A stretch of DNA of 64,000 nucleotides. Origin: Antedon mediterranea (taxonomy: Eukaryota; Echinodermata; Crinoidea; Comatulida; Antedonidae). Numbering within the stretch: position 1 is the first letter of the stretch; each line of letters begins with the position of its first letter. The notes under the pieces are model-generated. The model searched no databases. It worked only from the letters and a program-made list of their open reading frames with translations, and was not told the DNA's origin. This document shows positions 20,931 through 57,950 of the stretch, in pieces. The stretch lies in NCBI RefSeq assembly GCF_964355755.1, contig NC_092674.1, positions 9,615,001 to 9,679,000 on the forward strand. Direction: 5' to 3'. Made by a program: the position numbers and the translations under genes.

Positions 20931-23646
20931 ATGGCTTTGATTTATGACAATTTGTTGTCTTTAATTAGCATCCAAAATGTTGTGTTACTTGTATTCGTAA
21001 TCCTATTGGCATTATGGTTATTGAAGTCTAATAATAATTTACCACCTGGTCCTCGTGGCTGGCCGATTATAGGATCTATACCTTACATGTTCGGAGAACC
21101 ACACGAGACATTCGAGGAGTGGACAAGAATATATGGTGATATCTTCACAGTCAAATTGGGCCGGGAAACAGTAGTCATTTTAAATGGTTCTGATGTTGTG
21201 AAACAGGCCCTTAAAGACCAAGGAGAACGGTTCATAGACAGAAAAATTATACCAATAGTAGAATTTGGTTATACGATAAAAGGTAGGTGAGAATTTGTAT
21301 GGCCCAGGATTATGGACTCGCACAAAAAGGAATTCCGCGAATATAGATCTGAATAACCACCACGCTTGAAATGGTAGGAATTTTTTTGGGTATAATTAAT
21401 CAAGTTCGTACAGCAGGCCTGATCAGTTCCCACTTATTGAATATCTAACAGAGTGTGGCTATTTTGGGAGTGATCTGGTGGTATTACATATTGTCATTCT
21501 ATAGTTTGATTATAATCCCTATTGCCTTCTATTCATCCTTAGGGGGTATTGCTTTTCGAAATGGACATCCCTGGCTTGAACTTCGACGCTGGTCATCTAG
21601 CTTCCTCCGTGACTATTGCCACGGCAAGAAAGGTTTGCTTGGAAGACAGTTGAACTTAGAGAGCCAGTTGACTATAGAAGCAGAACACTTGTGTCAAGAA
21701 TTTGGTAAACGCGAAAAGCCCTTTAATCCATTTCATTGCATAAATAATGCCGTATCGAATATTATTAGTATCATTTGCTTTGGCGATAGATTTGAGTACA
21801 ACGATCCAAAATATAAGGAACTGTTAGAAGGCTTGGGGTACTTGTTTGACTGTACTGGATTCGTATCCGCACTAAATGCATTTCCCATATTATACTATAC
21901 TCCAGTGTACAAACAATTTCGTAAAACCTTGCTACATACAAAATCATTTCTAAATGATATTATAAAACGACATGAAGAAACATTCGATTCTGAAGATATT
22001 CGGGACATCATCGACGCGTATCTGCTAGAACTCCAGAAAGATGACGTTGATACCAGTGTGTTTTCCAAAGACGTACTATGGCGAACAATTCTTGATTTGT
22101 TTGTTGCTGGAACAGATACTGTTACTTCTACACTTGCGTTTACTATCGCGTTCTTAGTCAACTATCCAGAGGTACAGAAAAAGGTAGGCGTCTTGTCGTT
22201 TATACTAGGAGTAATTTAATTTATAAATGTGTTCTGTGAGTACCGATATATAGGTTACTATCAATCAAACTTGATTTGCCTTGTTTTCGTTTGTTTTGTC
22301 TTTTGTGAGATTCACTCACTTTTATTTCATTCTTTACAATTGTTACAATAATCTATATCAATTTTGTTTCAGTAGAAAACTATCTCTGCAGCTTAAATGT
22401 TTTTTTTGTTTTTCTTATTTTTAGTATTTTACATACATTTGCCTTGTTTACACTAAAATGATCATCCTAACTCTCTGAAAAAAGTACATTGGGTATATTT
22501 TCTTAATACTATATCTGTAAAGGCCTACTTAACTAGAAAATATGTGTTAATGAAATAAACATTATTTCTCTATTATAATGGCCTGTACTGTAATTTCATA
22601 TTTTCAATGTAGCTACAAAAGGAAGTGGATGAAGTAATTGGCCAGAAGAAACCAAAATGGAGCGATCGTCATTCGATGCCATACTTGGAAGCCACAATAA
22701 TGGAGATACAACGGCTGGGTAACGTTGTCCCGTTTTTCGGACGGCGTACATCTGATTGTGTTAAAATAAATGGATACGAAATTCCAGCGGATACCACCGT
22801 ATTGGTAAACTTATTTAGCGTACATCGTCATTCAGATAAATGGGCAAGACCTTTGAACTTTGAACCGGATCGATTCTTAGATGATTTAAAGAACATTCAG
22901 AAGCAAGAGGCACTTCTACCTTTTGGAATAGGTAGGTTAGACCTAATACTTCCTCCATTGTAGACTAACATATTAGTTAAAAGTAGTTAAAAGTGGTCCA
23001 AACTGGTCCACAAAATCCACATTTTCAAAAACTAAGACTAAACTGTCTTTCTGCGTTGCACCATCTCGTTTCAAATTTTAGTATACAAGACGATTATAAA
23101 TTATAAATGACGATCTGAAATGTTTGATGATTTTACATGTTTGGCTTATTTAAAGAATCCGATGAGGTAGACTCATCTTTTCCCATTATACTGGATACCG
23201 TCATATTTCATACCATAGTGGAACAAAAAGCATGGGGAAATGAATTCATCAATGGTTGCCCAGGAAGTTGTTAAATTAACAACTCCCTGGGTTGACTTCA
23301 GCCAATCATTGGGACTTGAATTATTACTTAAATAATTATGTTTTTATTGTAATACAAATCAAATTTCGATCATTGGATATTTTACGTATTAATAATTCGT
23401 AATACAGGTATTAACTTTTATGGACAATTAAACAATTATTAAATTTGTCTTATAATTCTTTCAGGTCGTCGGTTGTGTATTGGTGAACTGATGGCGAAAA
23501 TGGAACTGTTCCTTTTTACGGCAAACCTGATACAACGATTTCAATTCAAGGTACCGGAAGGAAGATGTGCTCCATCGGTACACGACTGTCTGTCTGGTAT
23601 AACACGACGTCCTAAACCCTTTGAAATATGCGCCATTAAACGTTAA
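20931..23646 (+). CDS. cytochrome P450, CYP2-clan (P450 gene 2 of 4)
   Basis: Predicted ER-anchored monooxygenase. Coding exons: 20931-21282, 21543-22183, 22613-22931 and 23465-23646, with intron phases 1, 0, 1, for 497 residues. The membrane anchor is about residues 17-31, the hinge PPGPRGWP starts at 38, the I-helix AGTDTVT is 306-312, ExxR (EIQR) is 362-365 and the heme loop is FGIGRRLCIG with Cys442. The frame is open upstream of the ATG, but MALIYD is chosen because genes 3 and 4 start the same way, just ahead of the anchor. Exon 2 and the first 56 bases of intron 2 are almost identical to gene 3, pointing to recent duplication or conversion. No TATAAAAG box like that of genes 3 and 4 was found. 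A possible AATAAA lies at 23721. Confidence 0.94.
23261..23289. mobile_element. 29-bp palindromic CAGGGA-type insertion in P450 gene 2 intron 3
   Basis: The sequence begins CAGGAAGTTGTTAA and ends TTAACAACTCCCTG, a near-perfect palindrome. Flanks: GGTTGCC (23254-23260) and GGTTGAC (23290-23296), a 7-bp direct repeat with one mismatch. It belongs with the insertions at 28373 and 37621. Confidence 0.65.
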
Positions 23647-24439: not shown

Positions 24440-25145
24440 AACTCTAGGCCTATAGCTCACTATGTCGGTCGGTCGGTAAACACTAACTCAAATTCATATT
24501 TTTTTCGTTATTTTGACAGTGGATATTAATACTTGGAGGCAAATATAAATGTCTTTAAAAATTGTTCAACATTTTCTAACATTTTCAACAATTTTCGGTC
24601 GGTTGGTTGGTCGATCGGTAAATAATGTCGGTAAACACTAACTCAAATTCATATTTTTTTCGTTATTTTGACAGTGGATATTAATACTTGGAGGCAAATA
24701 TAAATGTCTTTAAAAATTGTTCAACATTTCCTAACATTTTCAACAATTTTCGGTCGGTTGGTTGGTCGGTCGGTAAATAATGTCGGTAAACACTAACTCA
24801 AATTCATATTTTTTTCGTTATTTTGACAGTGGATATTAATACTTGGAGGCAAATATAAATGTCTTTAAAAATTGTTCAACATTTTCTAACATTTTCAACA
24901 ATTTTCGGTCGGTTGGTTGGTCGGTTGGTAAATAAGGTCGGTAAACACTAACTCAAATTCATATTTTTTTCGTTATTTTGACACTGGATATTAATACTTC
25001 GAGGCAAATAATTATAAAGGTTTATAAACAATTTCCAACAATTTTTTAACATTTTCTAACATTTTCAGCAATTTCGGTCGATTGGTCGGTAGGTCGGTCT
25101 GTCATTAAACAATAACTCAAATTTGCGCTCGCGACTGCAGCCATA
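24440..25145 (+). repeat. GGTC-repeat element, copy B, with 155-bp tandem units
   Basis: It opens with CTATAGCTCACTATGTCGG as in the other copies. The block GTAAACACTAACTC then recurs at 24476, 24631, 24786 and 24941, an exact 155-bp period, each unit ending in GGTCGGTTGG-type runs. A fifth partial unit follows, and the element ends near CGCGACTGCAGCCAT (about 25145). Exact spacing and few differences suggest recent amplification. Confidence 0.9.
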
Positions 25146-25236: not shown

Positions 25237-25270
25237 CAGGGAAGAGGACAAATTTCACTACATCTCCCTG
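25237..25270. repeat. possible imperfect CAGGGA-type insertion upstream of P450 gene 3
   Basis: CAGGGAAGAG at the left end and ATCTCCCTG at the right end are partly inverted. The flanks GTATAAA and GTATACT are only 5 of 7 alike. It sits just upstream of the gene 3 TATA box. It may be an older, diverged member of the palindromic insertion family. Confidence 0.3.
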
Positions 25271-25581: not shown

Positions 25582-28500
25582 ATGGCGTTGATCTATGATG
25601 ATGTGTTGTCTTTAATTAGCATCAAAACTGTTTTTTTACTTGTATTCCTAATTGTATTAGCATTATGGTTATTGAAGTCTAATAATAATTTACCACCTGG
25701 TCCCCGTGGCTGGCCCATTGTAGGATCTACGCCTTACATGTTTGGTGAACCACATGAGACATTCGCGGAGTGGACAAGATTTTATGGTGATATATTCACA
25801 GTAAAATTGGGCCCGGAAACAGTAATCATTTTGAATGGCTTGGATGTTGTGACACAGGCGTTGAAAGAACATGGCGAGAAGTTCATGGACAGACCACTTG
25901 TACCGATATTAGAATTGGGCTATACAGTAAAGGGTAGGTAAGAATTTGTTTTATTTTAAGAAATAGGCATAGTTAGATTATCTGCGCCTACGATTAGTTG
26001 AACCGGCAAAATTTGGATTAATTATATGTGTTTATATAATATATCTATCACACACGCACATTAAACAATTTACGCTTAAAATGGCGACCAAAATGGTTTA
26101 TGTACGTAGGCCTATTGTCAAAATGTGTTCTACACTATATCTACTAGACCTGAAGGTTTAAAGTTTATCCCAGGGCCCATAAATTGACCTACTTGTGGTA
26201 TACCAAATATTTATACTGTAAGATTCAGAGATTGGACTGTTCCATTCATCGCCAATCAATTAAATCTAGTATCAATCAATCAATCAATCAAAGTAACATT
26301 TATTTCTCTTGTCTTTCATAGAAAATAAAAATTAACAGTAAAAATTATTAAAATAACAGGGGCAACATTCCTAAAAAGCAAAGCTTGTATAAGGCAGCCC
26401 ATAGAAAATGAAAAAAAAAAACAGGACAACACGGGAACCGGAAACAGGACAAAAACAGTAATGAAGACTTTTAGATTCAGGGTACCGAAAAGACTAAATA
26501 TCAAAACTACAATGAGTGAAAGGATAATTAAACATAACTAGATAAGAGGTGCCGTTTCAATTTAAAAGAAAAACTCTTCTTAGACAAAGCACTTTTTATA
26601 TTAACTGGTACGTTATCCCAAAGTTTAGGACCAGTGAACTTAATGCTATGTTTAAAAGAAGTAGTTTTAAAAAAAGGAATACGTATTTGATTTGCGCTCC
26701 GAGTACTGTGGTTATGAAAATTAAGATTGAAACTAAATAAATCATTAAAGTGTGATGGCAGGATCGAGTTTAGCCATGAATAGAGGAAAACACTTTGTTG
26801 AAGATGGTTAATATCCTGAATTTTAAGAAGACCAAATGAAGAAAATAAAGGATTGGAATGGGATAAAGGAGGAGCATTTGCTATGTATCTTACGGTTTTC
26901 TTTTGGATCAATAACAGTTTGTTTAAGTAGGACGGGTATGTATTACCCCAAATAATATTACAGTAAGTGAGGTAAGGGAGGATTAGTGAACAGTAAAGAA
27001 TCCGGAGTATGTTTTGAGGGATGAAAGATGATAATCTATATATGATACCAGAACTTTTGGATATTTTGTTTTCGACTTGAGTAATCTGATGTTTCCAATT
27101 TAGCCAGGGAGTTGTAACAACTCCCTGGTATTACCTTTTTAAAGAAATTTGTTTGTCTTCAACATTATGATGCGCTGTACTCGAGCTGTTTGAGTGGTTT
27201 TCAGCTATTAAAACAATTATTGTAGAAGGAGATAGGTAAATGCGAATAATCCTCGTGTTTTTGTGTGCGAGTATTTTTCAAGATGAACACCAATTAGACA
27301 GTGTAGGCCTATACCACAATCGGAAACCACCCTATTGTGGGTTGGGGAAAATCTTTGAACCTAAATTCGTTTTAATCGTCAATAACTAATTATCTAACCC
27401 AACAGGTGGTTAAATCAGTACTGAAAGTATGAAACAACTTTGTATACAATCGAGTAAAAATTGTAGAAGTACCTAACGCGCGATTTACCGAATGTTGCCC
27501 TTACGTAAATTTATATATGAATTCCAAACTATATTCCGCAAACATAAATAGAATCTATAGTCTTTGCTCTGTAAATTTAATTGTAGCAAGATTATTTTTC
27601 TTTTTCTTTTTGCGCAACTAAACAAATTATGCCTACGTTCATGCAGTCCGGGCCGTGATTTTTTTTTTCGTACATAAGTTGGGGACCCCTTCATGAAACG
27701 TCACAAAATAAACATGAATAATTCATCAGTTAAATTTGTTGTTCCGTGTGCACCCAAGCGTATAGCAACAAGAAGTGATTACACAACTGCGATACGATAC
27801 TTTCTACAGTAGGCCTAGGATTATAAGTAAATTCACGTGATTGCCTTCGCGCACTCTTCTTCACACAAAATGTGTCGAGTCGAGGCTAATCGACAGCTAG
27901 GCAAGACATTAAACTAAGTAGTAATTCATTGGACATAGCCCAAAGAAAGCTTAGACCCACAAGAATAAAGAATGTGTATAATTTGTGTACTGTATTTTTT
28001 TAATTCTGCTATTTTATTATCAAACAATATGCATGTACTCAAAGGAACTTTAAAAATGCGCGTATATGAACACATGAGATGGGAAGATTTGACCCACGAG
28101 AATAAAAATGTATTTTTGTGTAATGTTTATTGTTTAATTTTGCTGACTTATTACTCGGATTGTGTCATACCAAAGAGTGTAACTATCTTTGGTCATACCT
28201 AACACACACACGTCACACACACCCACACAGCTACTACTAGAATAGACATGGGTTTAGAGACTAATAATTAGGCCTAATAGTATTAATAGAAACTATAGTT
28301 TTAACACGTAATTCTTTAGTAAAAAATTATATTAAAAACACCATAAACTAAAGGCTGATTATTTCGACAATCCAGGGAGTTGTTATTAATAACAACTCCC
28401 TGGACAATCCACACAAAACGCCGCTATTCTTCTATGAAATCGCACGCCGCAACAACAGCGGAGATAGGCCTAGAATCGTACCGCACTTGTGTAATCACTT

Positions 28501-31030
28501 CTTGTTGCTATACGCTTGGGTGCACACGGAACAAGAAAATTTAACTGATGAATTATTCATGTTTATTTTGTGACGTTTCACGAGGGGGTCCCCAACTTAT
28601 GTACGAAAAAAAAAATCGCGTCCGGGCCTATGTTTTCGAATCATCCATATACCGTCTACTGTATAGGCCTAGTTATACTGTATCTAATCATGGATCAGTA
28701 ATTTTTTAAATGTGCGTTTGGATCCCAATATTTTCGAGAGTGATAAATGAAAGAAATAAGTTCCTGCTATTTTAGAAAAGTGCTTCATTTTTATTTAAAA
28801 GACCTGTACCTCTTAAAGCGTTCTTAGTGTTTCTGCACATTCAGTAGGCCTAGACTACGTCAGATCATGGACTCATTATTTAGATGAATAACCAGTCGAC
28901 CAATTAAAGCAGCTCTCTCGCTCAAAGCTGCCTCGCATTAGTTATTTGAAGATAATACTTTACCGTGGGCGTACATATGTCTTTCAGGAGTACCGTCAAA
29001 ATATCACCATACACAAACCTATGGTTGATTCTATTTACTTATGTTTCAATTCTAGGGGGTATAGTTTTTGCAAATGGACATCCCTGGCTTGAACTTCGGC
29101 GCTGGTCATCTAGCTTCCTCCGTGACTATTGCCATGGCAAGAAAGGTTTACTTGGAAGACAGTTGAACTTAGAGAGCCAGTTGACTATAGAAGCAGAACA
29201 CTTGTGTCAAGAATTTGGTAAACGCGAAAAGCCCTTTAATCCATTTCATTACATAAATAATGCAGTATCGAATATTATTAGTATCATTTGCTTCGGCGAT
29301 AGATTTGAGTACAGTGATCCAAAATATAAGGAACTGTTAGAGGGGATGAGGTACTTGTTTGAGTGTAGCGGATTCGTATCCCCAGTAAATGCCATTCCTC
29401 TATTATACTACACCCCATTGTATAAGCGCTTTCGTCACACAATATCCAATACAAAATCATTTATTGATGATATTATAAAACATCATGGAGAAACATTCGA
29501 TTCTGAAGATATTCGGGACATCATCGACGCGTATCTGCTAGAACTCCAGAAAGATGACGTTGATACCAGTGTGTTTTCCAAAAACATACTATGGCGAACA
29601 ATTCTTGATTTGTTTCTTGGTGGAACAGATACTGTTACTTCTACACTTGCGTTTACTATCGCGTTCTTTGTAATCTATCCAGAGGTACAAAAAAAGGTAG
29701 GCCTCTTGTCGTTTATACTAGGAGTAATTTAATTTATAAATGTGTTCTGTGATTTTAACACTAATTAATGTTTAAATTTGTACGTTTGAGCATGGAAATT
29801 TAACAACAGAATGTGTTATCATTTTGTTATACAAGGCCTTACTGTAATTCCATATTTTAAATTTAGGTGCAGAATGAAGTCGATACCGTTCTTGGTCAGA
29901 AGAAACCAAAATGGAGCGATCGTCATTCGATGCCATACTTAGATGCCACACTAATGGAGATACAACGGCTGGGTAACGTGTCTCCGTTTTTCGGACGGCG
30001 TACTGCTGACGACGTTGAAATAAACGGTTACACAATTCCAGCTGACACGACGGTATTGATAAACTTATTCTGTGTTCATCTTAATTCGGAAAATTGGGAA
30101 AGACCTCTGAACTTTAAACCGGAACGATTCTTATCAGATGATTTAAAAACCATTCAAAAGCAAGAGGCATTCCTGCCTTTCGGAATAGGTAGGTATATTA
30201 ATTACCAATGCTGGTTGCATACAACTTGGGCTTTCCCTTGTCATTTTCAAATGCAGCGGGTTTTGTATAGCCTACAGCGTATCATCAGATCAACACCCAA
30301 AGTGTGAGTCTGTTAGAAGAGAATTCTGGACATGTAGAGAATTCGAATTTTCGGATCTAAAGCATAACTTACCATTTTAAGGAAGTGTCGATAAGCTACA
30401 GTATTTATATAGATTATTTAATATATTAAAATAGAATGTTTTTAATTGAGACCAATTACCGGTAGTGGTTTTATGGTTTAGAAGTTAAAAACAAAATAGA
30501 GGCATTCAATGTTGGGTCAATTTTTGTATCTATTATGTTGTGTTTAGTTTTATGTTTTTTATGTAAAAGGGTCCTGCGAAAACAGAAGTGTAAACTTCTC
30601 TATGCAGGATCCTTGCCATCATTTATGCTATGAAACTGTATTTATAAACGATGAGTAAATAAATTTGAATTGAATTGAATTTAAATGTCTCGTAAGTGAC
30701 GTATCATTTGCACGTCCCCAAACCATTAATTTTTAATTAGCCACCTTATTTTTTGTAACATAGTATAATTGAATTTCGATTCCTAATCTTGTCCTGTATT
30801 TATATGGACAATTATAAATAAGAATATACTAAATTATAATTCTTTCAGGTCGTCGGTTGTGTATTGGTGAGCTGATGTCGAGAATGGAGCTGTTTCTTTT
30901 TACGGTTAACCTGATACAACGATTTCAATTCAAGGTACCGGAAGGAAGATGTGCTCCATCGGTACACGACTGTCTTTCTGGTTTAACACGACGCCCTGAA
31001 CCCTTTGAAATATGCGCCATTAAACGTTAA
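25582..31030 (+). CDS. cytochrome P450, CYP2-clan (P450 gene 3 of 4), frameshifted in last exon
   Basis: Predicted ER-anchored monooxygenase. Exons: 25582-25933, 29056-29696, 29867-30188 and 30850-31030. The first three match the paralogues in length and phase. The last is 181 bases where genes 1, 2 and 4 have 182: a T run reads CTTTTACGG instead of CTTTTTACGG near 30897-30902. Read literally, translation continues only to a TGA at 30912-30914, giving about 459 residues. That keeps the heme loop FGIGRRLCIG (Cys443) but loses about 39 C-terminal residues that are otherwise intact in the next frame. The cause may be a homopolymer error or a real, young null allele. The I-helix reads GGTDTVT. 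Intron 1 (3.1 kb) holds a LINE fragment, two palindromic insertions and an inverted repeat; intron 3 holds a LINE tail. A possible AATAAA lies at 31143. Confidence 0.88.
26262..27103 (-). mobile_element. CR1/L2-like LINE 3' fragment
   Basis: On the minus strand the frame is open from 27103 to 26528. It reads NWKHQITQVENKISKSSGI, then LPYLTYCNIIWGNTYPSYL and LIQKKTVRYIANAP, the segment after the catalytic motifs of CR1/L2-type reverse transcriptases. The 3' end near 26262-26290 is a (TGAT)n run, a common tail for such LINEs. The 5' end abuts the palindrome at 27104. It is 5'-truncated and lies in intron 1 of P450 gene 3. Confidence 0.85.
27104..27128. repeat. 25-bp CAGGGA palindrome at the LINE edge
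   Basis: CCAGGGAGTTGT and its exact inverse flank a single A. It has the same arms as the insertion at 28373, but no 7-bp duplication is evident (flanks ATTTAGC and GTATTAC). One flank may have been lost with the LINE boundary or by rearrangement. Confidence 0.7.
27645..28627. repeat. inverted repeat, ~145-bp arms about 690 bp apart
   Basis: The left arm (27645-27792) and right arm (28484-28627) are reverse complements with few differences, sharing GTGCACCCAAGCGTATAGCA, AAGAAGTGATTACACAA and GGGGACCCC/GGGGTCCCC. The enclosed DNA has no recognisable gene. It may be a foldback transposon. It lies in intron 1 of P450 gene 3. Confidence 0.85.
28373..28402. mobile_element. 30-bp perfect palindromic insertion with 7-bp target duplication
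   Basis: CAGGGAGTTGTTATT followed by its exact reverse complement, with no unique internal sequence. It is flanked by GACAATC at 28366-28372 and 28403-28409. It looks like a transposon reduced to its terminal repeats. Confidence 0.75.
30540..30690 (+). mobile_element. LINE 3' tail (CR1-like) in P450 gene 3 intron 3
   Basis: The segment holds an imperfect stem (GGGTCCTGCGAAAACAG with CTATGCAGGATCC), then AGTAAATAAA and the short tandem tail TTGAATTGAATTGAATT, a common 3' end of CR1-type LINEs. No coding sequence is left. Confidence 0.6.
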
Positions 31031-31142
31031 GCGTTATAACCAAATTTTCATTGGTTTGGCGCTTTCTTTCGTCTGATAGTCACCGTTGAAGTTTTCGGAT
31101 TTTGTGTTAATACTGTTCGTAATTTGGCTTTAGAATATGGGT

Positions 31143-31148
31143 AATAAA
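31143..31148 (+). terminator. candidate poly(A) signal of P450 gene 3
   Basis: AATAAA about 113 bases after the last exon's original stop codon position. Confidence 0.5.
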
Positions 31149-31344
31149 TCAAACAAAATTACTGTTAACAGAATTTTCGCTGCGTAAGTTGTAGTAGGCT
31201 TATGTGTAGTTTCGACAAATCGTTCTCATCAATTTTCATGTTGATAACTACAGTACTGTGAATAATCCGTGACGTCAGAGAAGGGCAAACATCTGGCCAA
31301 TTTACTTAGCTCCGTGGTGCAGAGTTATTATTATAAATATATGC

Positions 31345-31352
31345 TATAAAAG
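31345..31352 (+). promoter_or_regulatory. TATA box of P450 gene 4
   Basis: TATAAAAG within ATGCTATAAAAGTCGG, 269 bases before the ATG, matching the gene 3 promoter. The leader DNA downstream is also conserved between genes 3 and 4 (for example ACAAGCTTGTTCAAAACT and TTCTAAAGATTTG). Confidence 0.7.
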
Positions 31353-31613
31353 TCGGTGCTACTCTGTTTATACTATGTATTTCTATAAAAGCTGTGCGAT
31401 TTAGAAAAAAGTTTCGAAATAATGATCATATACTATGCATTTTTTAGTTTTGGCCAATAACACCCATGACCTTGAAAAACAAGCTTGTTCAAAACTCTCA
31501 ACAGTATAATTATATTCATTCAAGCGTATACATATTATACAAATTCAGTGAATTCTAAAGATTTGATTTGGTACGTAGACAATCAGTTGTAACCCAGCAA
31601 GACAATTATTAAA

Positions 31614-34600
31614 ATGGCGTTGAGCTATGACGACGTGTTGTCTTTAATTAGCATCCAAACTGTTGTTTTACTTGTCTTCCTAATTATATTGGCATTATGG
31701 TTATTGAAGTCTGATAATAATTTTCCACCTGGTCCTCGTGGCTGGCCGATTGTAGGATCTATGCCTTATATGTTCGGTGAACCACACGAGACATTCGAGA
31801 AATGGACAAGAATATATGGTGATATCTTCACAGTCAAATTGGGCTCGGAACCAGTAGTGATTTTAAACAGCTCTGATGTTGTGAAAGAGGCGTTAAACAG
31901 CAATGGGGACAAGTTCATCGACAGACCGCTTTTACCAATATTAAAATTAGGCTATACGGTAAAAGGTAGGTTAGATTTAGTAACTGACGATAGGTACCTA
32001 ATTGTTTTACAAAATAGGTCTAATAGTGGATTATAATCCATAGATTGGATTAATCTAAAACCAGAGCACTTACAAAAAAGAATTACTATTGTATTACAAT
32101 ACTTTTTGAGTTCCCTAACTACATGATTTCTTTGAAATCTTGATGTATGAATTAAAGACTAATGACCTTAAAAATTATTTGCAAATTTTCATTTCAATAC
32201 AATGACAATATACACCAATAATTAATTTTAATTAATGATTGATAATGATAATTTATAATTTTTCTATTGAACAGGAGGTGTCATTTTTGTGAATGGACAT
32301 CCCTGGCTTGAACTTCGACGCTGGTCATCTAGCTTCCTCCGTGACTATTGCCACGGCAAGAAAGGTTCACTTGGAAGACAGTTGAACTTAGAGAGCCAGT
32401 TGACTATAGAAGCTGAACACTTGTGTCAAGAATTTGGTAAACACGAAAAGCCCTTTAATCCATTTCATTACATAAATAATGCCGTGTCGAATGTTATTAC
32501 TGCTGTTTGCTTTGGCGATAGATATGAGTACAGCGATCCAAAATATAAGGAACTGTTAGAGGGGATAAGATACCTATTAAAGTGTAGCGGATTCATAACT
32601 CCGGTAAATACCATTCCTCTTTTCTATTACACCCCATTGTATAAGCGCTTTCGTCAAACGATGTCTAATGCAAAGTTATTTATTGAGGATAATATAAAGC
32701 GTCATGAAGAAACATTCGATTCTGAAGATATTCGGGACATCATTGACGCATATCTTTTGGAGCTTAAGAAAGATGATGTTGATACCAGTGTGTTTTGCAA
32801 AGACATATTCTGGCGGACCATTCTTGATTTATTTTTTGGTGGAACTGACACTATTAGTTCCACACTTGCGTTTGCTATGGCGTTCTTGGTGAACTATCCA
32901 GAGGTACAGAAAAAGGTAGGCTCTAAACTGCCAGTTGGTTAATTAATAAGCGTGCGTATCAGATTGCATTTAATTCACACTTGTTCCGTTTGAGCGGCAT
33001 GGAAGATGGCGTCATTTTGTTAAATTAAATTTATTTGTAACGGGTGATCACTCCTCTTAGCATGTGTCTTGCGCAATACTAGCACCGCGAATTACATATA
33101 ATAAATTTTACTCGGACCTAGTCTCTCGAACTTCCGAATGAATAAAAAAATGACACTAAGGAATCGTGAGGATTCGGTTCACGGTTAACCACTACACTAA
33201 ACTAAAATTTAAAAACTTTTTATTAAATACAATTATAGAACAAAAGAATATTTAAATTAAACCTAGTATAACCTGGCACTACTCAAGTGAGATAATCGAG
33301 AATGTGCATAATGTTTTAGTTAAGCAAAAGGTGAACCGAATAATCAAAATAATACAGTGAACAGTGCCCGATCCAAATAAAAAAGAATTAATAACAAGTT
33401 GACAGTCTAGTATCTAGTCGACACCAGTCTTCTTCTCTTCCATTCAATAGAAGAGAATTATTAATTGATAGTAGCTGTTTCTTTTTCTCATCTAAATCTT
33501 AAAAGGACCAAATAAATACAGAATAAAACACAGACAGACTGTTTCGTCCAGAGTCCGGACTGTTCCTACAGCAGTTCCCTTATATTTCTTCGATGTCTGT
33601 CTATCTGTATCTGAATTCCTTTCTTTGGTCTCTGTGTTTCTATTTTATAAGAGGGTTAAACCCCACGCCTGTAAGTCCATTCATTGATCCTGATTGATTA
33701 ATGATTTGTTTGTTCATTTGTTTATATTGCTTCTATGAATTGTTGATTAATTAATAATGGTTCTTGACTTGCGTCCTTTTTTATTTAGCTACAAAATGAA
33801 GTGGATGAAGTAATTGGTCAGAAGAAACCAAAATGGAGCGATCGTCATTCGATGCCATACTTGGAAGCCACAATAATGGAGATACAGCGGCTGGGTAACG
33901 TTACTCCGTTTTTTGGACGGAGCACTACAGGTGATGTTAAAATAAGTGGTTACACAATTCCAGCTGACACTACAGTATTGATAAACCTATTCAGCGTCCA
34001 TCGTCATGCAGAAAAATGGGAAAGACCTCTGAACTTTGAACCGGAACGATTTTTATCAGGTGATCTAAAGACCATTCGAAAGCAGGAGCCATTTCTTCCT
34101 TTCGGTTTAGGTGGGTAGCTGATTATTAAGTTGGTTAAATCCATCAATACTTCTATAATAACACCTAAATCAGTGTGGTGCAAAATCAGCAAAAATGTAG
34201 AAAAAAATAAAAGTATCTTTATTCTGAGATAAGTCTATTGTGCGACTAAGAACTTGTTTATTTTGTAAAATTGTGCGCGCGCTGCTGGCAAGAAACATTG
34301 TACGTCTGATCTGAAATTGATACAAATTCTCTCATTTATCCGAGTCTAAATTAAATGTAAATTAAGTTGCGAAACACCTAAAACCATTTCGTGAAATGAA
34401 GAACCATAATACTAGTCCGGTCAATGTAGAAAAAATAATGGTTATACCTAGACAAAATTAGAAAATGGAGAAAAAATGTAGTTGAAGAAATTAGGTCAAT
34501 ACATAACACCAAAATGGCCGCTATCTACAGTACATTATTTTTTCTATTTATACCAGGTATAGTCTATAAAATCTAGAATTTTAAGTCAAACAAAAATGTT

Positions 34601-35917
34601 ATTTTTTAAATTGAACACATAATGATGTGGAGATAAAACTCCACAAATTAGGAACATATGTAAATTACCTAAAGTATGCAAATTGAGGGGAAAATATAGG
34701 GTAGCCTACCCATAGAACGCCAACTAGTTGTAGAGAGATTTTTTCCTAAATTGTTAAATATGTATGTTTATATTCCTTCTTATGAACCTTTTTGTCCAAC
34801 AATTTTCGGAAATGCTGTATTCGACCTCTGACCTTATTTTCAAAGGATTAGGTAATTTTCACTGGATTTACGTATCTCCATAACTACTCTAGGTAGAGAC
34901 ATAATTTAAGTCTCAATACTTTTACCTAGGTCACACATTGGGAACATATGTAAACTAGAAGGACACACTAGTTGCAACCTCCGGAGTAAAAAGAGAAAAT
35001 GGATCGAGAATCGTGATAAAGATTCGTATTGTAGTTTTTACATATGGCTTAAGTAAAATGATAAAAAAAAGTAGTTCAGAATTGGGATCCTGATCCGAAT
35101 TGCCTCCAAAATGTAATGGAGTTGTTCCTGACAACATTTCAATTTGGTAAAGATCTGGAATGGGGATATGTTCAAGCTAAGGTTCATCTTGAACCCTCCC
35201 AGCTGATTTACCATCAGCTCCAGATTTTCTTCTAACGGTTATTTAAAGCCATTGCAAACTGATTGCAATACAAGAAACTTTAAGATGTCATGTCGAGTCA
35301 TAATTTTTTGTTGAGGCTAAAATAGTTCATACATTAAGCTAGTCTGATTATATGGTTTCACTGAAATGCAGTTTTAGTCGCGTGGACGCGACTCTATAGT
35401 TCACTATGTCGGTCGGTCGGTCGGTCGGTCGGTCTGTCGGTCTGTCTGTCGGTCCGGTATCACTATGCGTTTTAGCAAGCGACTTATGGCTGTTGGCCTT
35501 GTTCCTTCTAATAAACAACTTTACATCTTTCTCAAACGTTTCCCTTTATAATGGCAGCCATTTTGAAGTATATTTACCATCTTGAATTTTTAAAAGTTGA
35601 ACAATATTTTTTAAATCTGTGCTTTAATACGGATATGAAACAAATTGCGAATTTGACATTTCTACTGTATCTAAAGTATTCTTCTACTGTGTCTATTCTT
35701 CTACTCTTTTTGACTTTAGTAAACTCTTCTTTCAGGTCGTCGGTTGTGTATTGGTGATCTGATGTCGAGAATGGAAGTGTTCCTTTTTACGGCAAACCTG
35801 ATACAACGGTTTGACTTTAAGGTACCAGAGAGAAGATGTGCTCCATCCGTAAACGACTGTCTGCCTGGTTTGACCCGACGTCCTAAACCGTTTGAAATAT
35901 GCGCCACTCGACGTTAA
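31614..35917 (+). CDS. cytochrome P450, CYP2-clan (P450 gene 4 of 4)
   Basis: Predicted ER-anchored monooxygenase. Coding exons: 31614-31965, 32275-32915, 33789-34110 and 35736-35917, with intron phases 1, 0, 1, for 498 residues. The hinge is PPGPRGWP, the I-helix GGTDTISS, the K-helix EIQR, then PERF, and the heme loop FGLGRRLCIG with Cys443. The third intron uses a GTGGGT donor, weaker than the GTAGGT of the other genes. Exon 2 begins with a long block nearly identical to genes 2 and 3, then diverges from about KCSGFITPVNT onwards, in the region of helices F-G that contacts substrate. The C-terminus reads ATRR rather than AIKR. It shares a TATA block with gene 3. Intron 3 carries a short GGTC-repeat copy. 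It appears intact. Confidence 0.94.
33037..33780. other. unassigned insertion-like DNA in P450 gene 4 intron 2 (possible solo LTR)
   Basis: The stretch begins TGTAACGGGTGATCAC, a start seen in many Gypsy-type LTRs, and contains a TTATAAGAGG box near 33645. I could not find a matching CA end or target duplication. The other P450 genes lack it. Its nature is unproven. Confidence 0.25.
35373..35500 (+). repeat. GGTC-repeat element, short copy C
   Basis: TTTTAGTCGCGTGG and GCGACTCTATAGTTCACTATGTCGG, then (GGTC)n/(GTCT)n, then GGTATCACTATGCGTTTTAG and AGCGACTTATGGC. This deletion derivative of the copy at 17425 lacks the core, so it consists almost only of the two ends and the microsatellite. It lies in intron 3 of P450 gene 4. 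Confidence 0.85.
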
Positions 35918-36729
35918 ATGGCGTCAGTTTTCAGGAATATGAAAATCAGGAGTAAAATTCACATGTATGATCTTAATCAAATTGATTTCCAACGCTCTTC
36001 AGCAAGCCATTTTAAAAGAAAGCTCAGCTACGCTATCTTACAGTATCACAGTATTTAACACATAAATTATTTCCGTATTTGAATAACACTCGCCCCCTTG
36101 TTATTAATTAATTTATAATATAAGAGAAATAATAATAGAACAATATTTTTGTATTTTCATTGTATAAATGTATTTATAAAAAAAAATTGTTGGAAACAAG
36201 CCTTTAGGCTTAAATGGTTGTCCCCTGCTTTCCATGTTTTTTTTTCTCAAGTTGTTGTATTATTTAATGTATTTATTTTCCTACATATTTTATGCTGTTT
36301 CAATATTGTACTGTCCGTGGAAAGCAATACATATTACTTACTTACTTACACTATCGTTTAGAATATAAGTCTCCCACCCCTCCCCTTCTTCCAATAATGT
36401 TCCCACATGTACACAAAATATTGTATTATAACACATTTATATTTAATATTTGTAATGGGATTTACATGATCTACTGATCTACAATCTACCGAGCATGTCG
36501 ATACAATTTTTACTGTATTTTATCTCTTCTTGATATTAATTGTGTTTGTGATTTATTCATATTATAAGGGGAATTTGTTTAACTATAAATGAAAAAACAC
36601 CCTCCCCCTCTAAGAACTCCCTCTCCTAAATATGATTATGTTCATGTATTATTCATGATTTCTGCCTTAACTCGTTAAAAATAATACATCCTGAACTGCT
36701 TTTTACAAGAAAAATAAAAATACTGTATC
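35918..36729. other. noncoding DNA downstream of P450 gene 4
   Basis: AT-rich, with a short (TTAC)n run near 36330-36350. No exon or clear AATAAA close to the stop was identified. Confidence 0.45.
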
Positions 36730-36815
36730 AATATGCAGTCACGTGCTCAAGTTAGTGTTACCGGCCAAACGACCGACCGACAAAACCGACCAACATAGTG
36801 AGCTGTAGAGTAAAA
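36730..36815 (-). repeat. GGTC-repeat element, short inverted copy D
   Basis: On the minus strand it reads CTACAGCTCACTATGTTGG, GGTCGGTCG runs, AACACTAACTTGAGC and GTGACTGCA, the two ends of the family without a core. Confidence 0.7.
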
Positions 36816-36829
36816 ATGGCCCATTTTCG

Positions 36830-37612
36830 GCCATTTATTTTCTGACATAATGGCATGCGCAGAATCGCACTTATGTGGTTTGCGCATGTTACGTCAATGC
36901 ATATTTTATACATGAGTCGATATTTGGCTATTTTTCGAGAAAAAATCCTTGTACTATAGTATAGGTAAATGTTAATAAAATGGCGCAATTTCGACCATTT
37001 TATATTTTGACATAATGCATAATGGTATGCGCATGCGCAAAATTAATTTCCAAATTTGCACCCTTTTATTTGTTGACATAATGGCATGTGCAGAATCACA
37101 TTCATGTGGTCTGCGCATGCTACCTCAATACTTTTTTATACTGTCGATATTTGCCCATTATTTCGAAAAAAATCCCTATACTATTAGCCTATAGTACACA
37201 TTTTTGTAAAATTGCGTAATGTCGACCCTTTTATTTTTAATGACATGCGCAGAATGTATCCAGTCGATATTTAGTTTTTTTTTTAAATGCGCGGAATTAC
37301 TGCGCATATAATTGAATAAGTTGATATTTTGGTCCTTTTTAAAATTTCGAAAAATTTACACGAGGCGCAGAATCACATAATCTGTTTCTGCACAAGTTCA
37401 ACACATAATTCGATAAGTCAACATTTTGGCCATTTTACGAAATTTCTCCCTGTACAGGGATTTCTTTTCAAAAAATTGCCAAAATATCGACTTTTAAAAA
37501 TATGATATGCTATAAAATGATAAATAATTATTATATTAGCCAGTTATGTAAAAAATATGTATTGAGGCAACATGCGAAGAACAGATTTTGTGATTCTGTG
37601 CATGTCACATTA
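36830..37612. repeat. dispersed repeat with GCGCAGAATC and TGGCCATTTT motifs
   Basis: A stretch of repeated motifs (ATAATGGCATG, GCAGAATCACAT, GTCGATATTT, CCCTGTA). Parts recur at about 48285-48350 and, over about 330 bases, at 50060-50400. No coding potential. The family is unidentified. Confidence 0.75.
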
Positions 37613-37620
37613 TGATATAG

Positions 37621-37645
37621 CAGGGAAGAGTATCACTCTTCCCTG
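37621..37645. mobile_element. 25-bp palindromic insertion with perfect 7-bp target duplication
   Basis: CAGGGAAGAGT, three bases, then ACTCTTCCCTG. It is flanked by GATATAG at 37614-37620 and 37646-37652. The arms differ from those at 28373 after CAGGGA, so this is a separate insertion and not a copy of the same palindrome. Confidence 0.75.
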
Positions 37646-37791
37646 GATATAGTAACCAAAATAACGACTTGCAACTATTATGCAATAATAATAATGTAGA
37701 ACCATAGCAACCATTTATTCATGCAAAAAATAAAGGCCCATAATTTGGCAATTTTTCGAAATTTCCCCTTTTTTCGGCGGCGCGCCTTTTC

Positions 37792-57794: not shown

Positions 57795-57950
57795 ACAGAT
57801 ATTGACTGCTTAGAGGTTAAATATAAGATTTGATATCCCCGAGGGAATGATATTAAGTTCATGGAAATATATATTCCCCGGGAACTTAATATCATTCCCG
57901 AGGGGATGTCAAATCTTATATTTAACCGATATAAAAGGCAATATCTGTTA
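57795..57950. repeat. ~155-bp foldback (long hairpin)
   Basis: The arms include AGATTTGATATCCCC / GGGGATGTCAAATCT and GGGAATGATATTAAGTTC with its exact inverse. The outer part pairs CAGATATTG with CAATATCTG. The loop is about 20 bases at 57861-57880. It is possibly a MITE. It lies just downstream of gene 6. Confidence 0.9.

Follow-up and report, generated by a model that had tools for sequence, protein, structure and literature searches.

Nearly all that is known about the long 3′-tail cut of P elements and about its repair comes from laboratory assays in Drosophila. In these, the cut of the P transposase is staggered by 17 nt (PMC7776569), the resulting 17-nt 3′ tails are repaired by alternative end joining, and the excision products read as duplication, tail, a join on (AT)/(TA) or an insertion, inverted tail and duplication (PMC2895639). 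Within the same superfamily, Galileo of Drosophila generates 7-bp, occasionally 8-bp, target duplications at a palindromic consensus GTANTAC (PMC4168063); it has very long terminal inverted repeats (TIRs) and a THAP domain, and chimeric copies whose two flanks do not match have been described (PMC3573991). The P-MITEs of Anopheles gambiae are at least 205 bp long, with 8-bp duplications and internal sequence, and there non-autonomous P derivatives outnumber coding copies (PMC1562414). P-type elements are also found outside insects; those of zebrafish (Pdre2 / THAP9) have ends starting with CA, 8-bp duplications, a 13-bp TIR (CATACCTGTCAAC) and a THAP domain.

Here we describe short palindromes with CAGGGA-type ends from a crinoid genome (host assembly of 354 Mb) and compare them with these systems. 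The closest likeness is to the P{wa} repair junctions of Drosophila (PMC2895639), in which intact duplications likewise enclose back-to-back TIR tails, with arms that stop at the tail length, junctions at AT/TA, arms of unequal size and filler. They differ in having duplications of 7 bp and tails of 17–18 nt, compared with 8 bp and 17 nt in Drosophila, and in forming a natural genome-wide record rather than a set of laboratory events. The duplication length is that of Galileo, whose target consensus resembles the motif GTTWAAC obtained here from 35 duplications; in contrast to Galileo, the TIR of the parent element is 28 bp long and the related transposases have a ZAD-like N-terminus. Non-autonomous derivatives outnumber coding copies as in A. 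gambiae, but the scars contain no internal sequence. We read the palindromes as footprints left by the natural excision of P-superfamily transposons; the product is known, its scale here is unusual, and we put the probability of this reading at about 0.92.

Palindromes of the window and their flanks

The window, that is, the whole stretch of 64,000 nucleotides that was analysed (C5:9615001-9679000), contains the five CAGGGA palindromes listed by an earlier sequence-only reading, the fourth of which lies at 27105-27127 rather than 27104-27128 (Table 1). Four window palindromes were observed, compared with none in 100 first-order Markov resamplings of the window, and three of these four are flanked by a duplication with at most one mismatch. 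The 7-bp duplications described in that reading were recovered, perfect at two of the five and graded at the others as given in Table 1; its remark that seven bases is an unusual length does not hold, since Galileo of the P superfamily mainly makes duplications of 7 bp (PMC4168063).

Table 1. Palindromes, putative excision footprints and target-site duplications in the window (window coordinates)
Feature	Position	Strand	Length	Sequence	Flanks, structure or basis
Palindrome	28373-28402	.	30 bp	CAGGGAGTTGTTATTAATAACAACTCCCTG	GACAATC on both sides (7/7)
Left target-site duplication	28366-28372	.	7 bp	GACAATC	Exact repeat of 28403-28409
Right target-site duplication	28403-28409	.	7 bp	GACAATC	
Probable excision footprint	28373-28402			CAGGGAGTTGTTAT-TA-ATAACAACTCCCTG	Two TIR ends, each of 16 nt, from the 2.5-kb P-type family, joined at a TA common to both; basis: parent TIR match, precise empty sites
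Palindrome	37621-37645	.	25 bp	CAGGGAAGAGTATCACTCTTCCCTG	GATATAG on both sides (7/7)
Left target-site duplication	37614-37620	.	7 bp	GATATAG	
Right target-site duplication	37646-37652	.	7 bp	GATATAG	
Probable excision footprint	37621-37645			CAGGGAAGAGT(T/G)AAATTACA family	Arms of 11 + 12 nt, central AT; basis: genome-wide footprints of the family
Probable excision footprint	23261-23289	.	29 bp	CAGGAAGTTGTTAAATTAACAACTCCCTG	GGTTGCC/GGTTGAC (6/7)
Footprint-like palindrome	27105-27127	.	23 bp	CAGGGAGTTGTAACAACTCCCTG	No duplication (mismatches at 4 of 7 flank positions)
Older footprint, tentative	25237-25270	.	34 bp	CAGGGAAGAGGACAAATTTCACTACATCTCCCTG	GTATAAA/GTATACT (5/7)

The palindrome at 28373-28402 sits inside a repeat with about 1,000 candidate copies at first look. 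Among 30 copies that were fetched, one was the window itself and one other (C1:28914057) contained the palindrome, while 28 ran through the site without interruption, had GACAATC once (as GAAAATC in one copy) and lacked exactly the palindrome and one GACAATC (30 + 7 bp). Because 28 of the 30 paralogues show this unoccupied site, 28373-28402 is a true insertion, 30 bp long and flanked by a duplicated 7-bp target. No clean empty site was found for 37621-37645, the flanks of which are made of local repeats.

At 23261-23289 the left arm contains one substitution, and centres related to that of this footprint, for example GTTAATT, occur among the genome-wide CAGGGA palindromes. The left flank of 27105-27127 is a repeat with more than 1,000 candidate copies, and similarity to all other listed copies stops at or just before the palindrome; its right flank is unrelated. 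This suggests that one flank was lost or exchanged, and the arrangement would be accounted for if two insertions had undergone exchange and excision came afterwards, chimeric copies without matching duplications being a point of likeness to Galileo (PMC3573991). The arms of 25237-25270 are unlike (CAGGGAAGAG and CAGGGAGATGTA), with 9 of 17 positions paired, and both arm types recur in other palindromes of the genome-wide CAGGGA pattern listing; it is possibly the scar of an older excision, and we list it tentatively.

Some of the scars lie in or near a cytochrome P450 gene cluster, because the last exon of one P450-like gene was found at 23466-23646 (GRRLCIGELMAK...) and the first exon of another at 25583-25940 (LPPGPRGWPIVG...). 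Between these two P450 gene pieces, positions 24472-25066 are occupied by a tandem array in which a 155-bp unit is repeated approximately 3.8 times, with 95% matching between copies. In addition, a 51-bp near-palindrome at 57846-57896 (AATGATATTAAGTTC...GAACTTAATATCATT) has exact 8-bp repeats (CCCGAGGG) on both sides and is possibly a scar or short element from another transposon family.

A 2.5-kb parent element and the junctions of the scars

Reading past the 17-nt arm CAGGGAGTTGTTATTAG led to paired ends approximately 2.5 kb apart. These belong to the parent of the 28373 family, an element with about 11 copies, 2.53–2.55 kb in size where intact, and a perfect 28-bp TIR (CAGGGAGTTGTTATTAGATGGAGTAACA). 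Two copies (L076 and L077, of 2533 and 2547 bp) are 98% identical, and a 7-bp duplication was present in all seven copies of which both ends were read, with a mismatch in one. The TIR begins with CA, and a TIR with this start together with a duplication of 7–8 bp is characteristic of the P superfamily. The parent retains fragments of two genes: a forward ORF encodes a ZAD-like zinc finger, and the reverse strand a PHD finger. In nine copies of the parent family this pair is present in the same convergent order. No intact transposase was found inside an element with CAGGGAGTTGTTATTAG TIRs, the 2.5-kb copies holding two gene fragments only; no match to PF21787 was listed at the parent copies, from which the catalytic domain is absent.

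An 11.6-kb copy (C3:37364601-37376215) was considered as an autonomous element and rejected. Between its ZAD piece and its right end there are 1.24 kb, the spacing also seen in the short copies, and because of this matching distance the extra 9 kb is placed to the left of the ZAD piece, where it is more likely a nested insertion.

Arm length in the scars was narrowly distributed. At the 79 listed non-parent sites retaining at least 17 nt of TIR, the retained length was 17 nt (22 sites), 18 nt (38) or 19 nt (19), and none of the 79 kept 20 nt or more, though the TIR of the parent measures 28 nt. This ceiling of 17–19 nt was measured in one family (CAGGGAGTTGTTATTAG), and some of the 19-nt arms can be explained by bases common to the opposite arm. 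Symmetric forms of 24, 27 and 30 bp correspond to pairings of two TA dinucleotides in the tail CAGGGAGTTGTTATTAG(A), and the symmetric 26-bp form to a pairing of AT with AT; other palindromes combine a full with a trimmed tail, resulting in unequal arms, or contain filler bases.

According to the mechanism that we propose, a P-superfamily transposon would insert with duplication of 7 bp of target. On its cut-and-paste exit, the transposase would cut the 5′-ending strand approximately 17–18 nt inside each terminal repeat, leaving each chromosome end with the target duplication and a 3′ tail of approximately 17–18 nt. The two tails, as copies of the same TIR end, would then be joined by the cell, often via annealing of self-complementary TA or AT and sometimes after trimming of one tail or addition of filler. 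The predicted product is target-site duplication, TIR end, inverted TIR end and target-site duplication, a palindrome of 20–45 bp with nothing inside. The insertion with a 7-bp duplication, the parent with the same TIR and a 7-bp duplication, the arm ceiling, the junction pattern and the kinship of the gene fragments are documented in this genome, whereas we presume, by analogy with Drosophila, which strand is cut and with what polarity, and which enzymes join the ends.

Two sites (L014, C1:31763999-31764043, and C4:13188128) keep 23 nt of the TIR before CAGGGA restarts, above the usual ceiling. They are perhaps joins made after limited copying, or nested events. Since 23 nt is longer than the tail, they would also suit an origin of the palindromes as internal deletion derivatives, formed by interrupted gap repair after excision and not by direct joining of tails. 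We consider this origin very unlikely for the palindromes as a group: interrupted synthesis is expected to produce a broad spread of arm lengths, whereas all 79 listed sites of the family end by 19 nt.

Kinship of the parent with P-type transposases

A genome search with the ZAD-like ORF of the parent returned its own family and the N-termini of P-type transposase loci (best E 6.6e-8), and in a profile search the E value, calculated as for one comparison, was 1.4e-20. One related frame of 617 amino acids matched PF21787 (TNP-like RNase H, 2.8e-19) and PF12017 (Tnp_P_element, 1.2e-5), with a weak match to zf-AD; the E values for PF07776 (ZAD) were 1e-5 in the relative and 1e-4 in the parent, neither of which reaches the curated cut-off. 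The N-terminal domain is a ZAD-like zinc finger instead of the THAP domain that fly and vertebrate members typically carry, which also sets the elements apart from zebrafish Pdre2 / THAP9, and the catalytic family model is still matched by the relatives. Next to the transposases L022, L023 and L031, and encoded by the strand opposite to theirs, is a PHD gene homologous to the parent fragment. A PHD-finger gene convergent to ZAD-like P-type transposases was noted at L110 (C5:16161950-16163797), C5:14668442 and C11:13872115. The convergent ZAD/PHD pair recalls the two-gene layout of the RAG1/RAG2-like transposon.

Judged from these sequence comparisons, the parent most plausibly derives, by internal deletion, from a two-gene ZAD/PHD P-type transposon, and its assignment to the P superfamily rests on common gene fragments, target motif, duplication length and tail length. 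We give even odds to the wider proposal that the genome hosts a two-gene P-type lineage, its transposase bearing a ZAD-like zinc finger rather than THAP and its second, convergent gene encoding a PHD-finger protein. Under this proposal, repeated excision of such elements would have left about 1,700 natural scars recording germ-line rejoining of long 3′ tails. A linked architecture of this kind would broaden the range of P-type transposon forms. In an incomplete literature search, by which novelty is not proven, neither a published genome-wide collection of natural P excision scars nor a ZAD/PHD P-type element was found.

At the transposase loci themselves, none of the CAGGG ends beside L016-L045 paired as TIRs, and for the ZAD elements that contain a transposase the ends could not be matched to duplications of their own. 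For the L022/L031 elements a left end (CAGTTCGGTACATCG) was derived from two copies, and a right end and duplication were not found; the identity of L028 and L029 extends past the fetched range.

The TIRs of hAT elements often begin with CAGGG, and no copy bearing the ends described here was found to contain the catalytic gene; both points would fit footprints from a different superfamily that makes 7-bp duplications, be it hAT, Dada or one not yet described. We regard such an origin as most improbable. Excision of hAT elements leaves changes of only a few bases, not 17–18 nt of each TIR, and hAT duplications are of 8 bp, whereas nearly all copies here have 7 bp; moreover, both gene fragments of the parent belong to elements with P-type TNP-like RNase H transposases.

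Genome-wide abundance and further TIR families

Genome-wide figures are pattern counts and samples. The pattern CAGGGA-N(10-30)-TCCCTG was found 1708 times compared with 54 for the reversed control pattern, and CAGGGAGTTGTT-N(0-30)-AACAACTCCCTG 217 times compared with none for its control; the 217 matches partly represent one scar amplified inside another repeat (L002-L013), for example as a 24-bp form with flanks TTTTTAG/CTAAAAA. This amounts to about 1,700 candidate P-type excision scars dispersed over the genome. For one family, 25 footprints were fetched and their ends chosen blind to the flanks; the flanking duplication was exactly 7 bp in 21 and exactly 8 bp in one, and an exact duplication of 5, 6 or 9 bp was present in none of the 25.

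The sequence-only reading had taken the palindromes for transposition of DNA reduced to its terminal repeats, for which it looked to a genome-wide excess of 7-bp flanking repeats, to copies lacking the insertion and to longer elements with the same ends. Each of these was found, in the 21 exact duplications, the 28 empty paralogues and the 2.5-kb elements, respectively, and transposition with 7-bp duplications is upheld. Movement at a size of 25–30 bp, in which such TIR pairs would be cut and inserted by a transposase acting in trans, would leave the same clean duplications and precise empty sites at a single locus, but we find it scarcely credible: the cores vary from site to site in length, symmetry and filler, the arms end at 17–19 nt of a 28-bp TIR, and a 2.5-kb parent exists. 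MITEs have a homogeneous internal sequence at many sites; here there is no internal sequence and the junction varies by site. In addition, P transposase requires internal binding sites well inside the element ends, which the palindromes lack. That they are palindromic protein-binding sites or hairpins made by mutation, with flanking repeats by chance, would suit their strong symmetry and can be dismissed, given the exact duplications at 21 of 25 sites and the empty paralogous sites, which rule it out for 28373-28402.

Read as excision footprints, the palindromes make the crinoid genome a large natural set of repaired cuts from several related families with knowable starting sequences, from which tail length, target preference and germ-line end joining could be read without experiment. 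Short perfect palindromes between 7-bp repeats would accordingly be annotated as transposon scars and not as tiny mobile elements.

The family of 37621-37645, CAGGGAAGAGT(T/G)AAATTACA, gave approximately 1,800 strand hits compared with 29 for the control. Among 17 scorable footprints of this second family, five had an exact 7-bp duplication, five had one with a single mismatch and one had an exact 8-bp duplication, and the family is more decayed than that of 28373-28402. Further TIR types seen in the genome-wide palindromes were CAGGGAGTTGTAAAAT, CAGGGAGATGTA and CAGGGAGGTATA; from the several types observed, a group of related families has therefore been active. In the second family, and in the CAGGGAAGAG family, the arm ceiling appears to be approximately 20–22 nt. 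A 427-bp CAGGGAAGAG element (L112) was set aside, being located inside a larger inverted structure with no usable duplication. Identical 42-bp palindromes of the CAGGGAAGAG family were also found approximately 2.92 kb apart at C1:2878763/2881679 and again at C1:11811027/11813953, as though they formed part of the repeated ends of a different mobile element.
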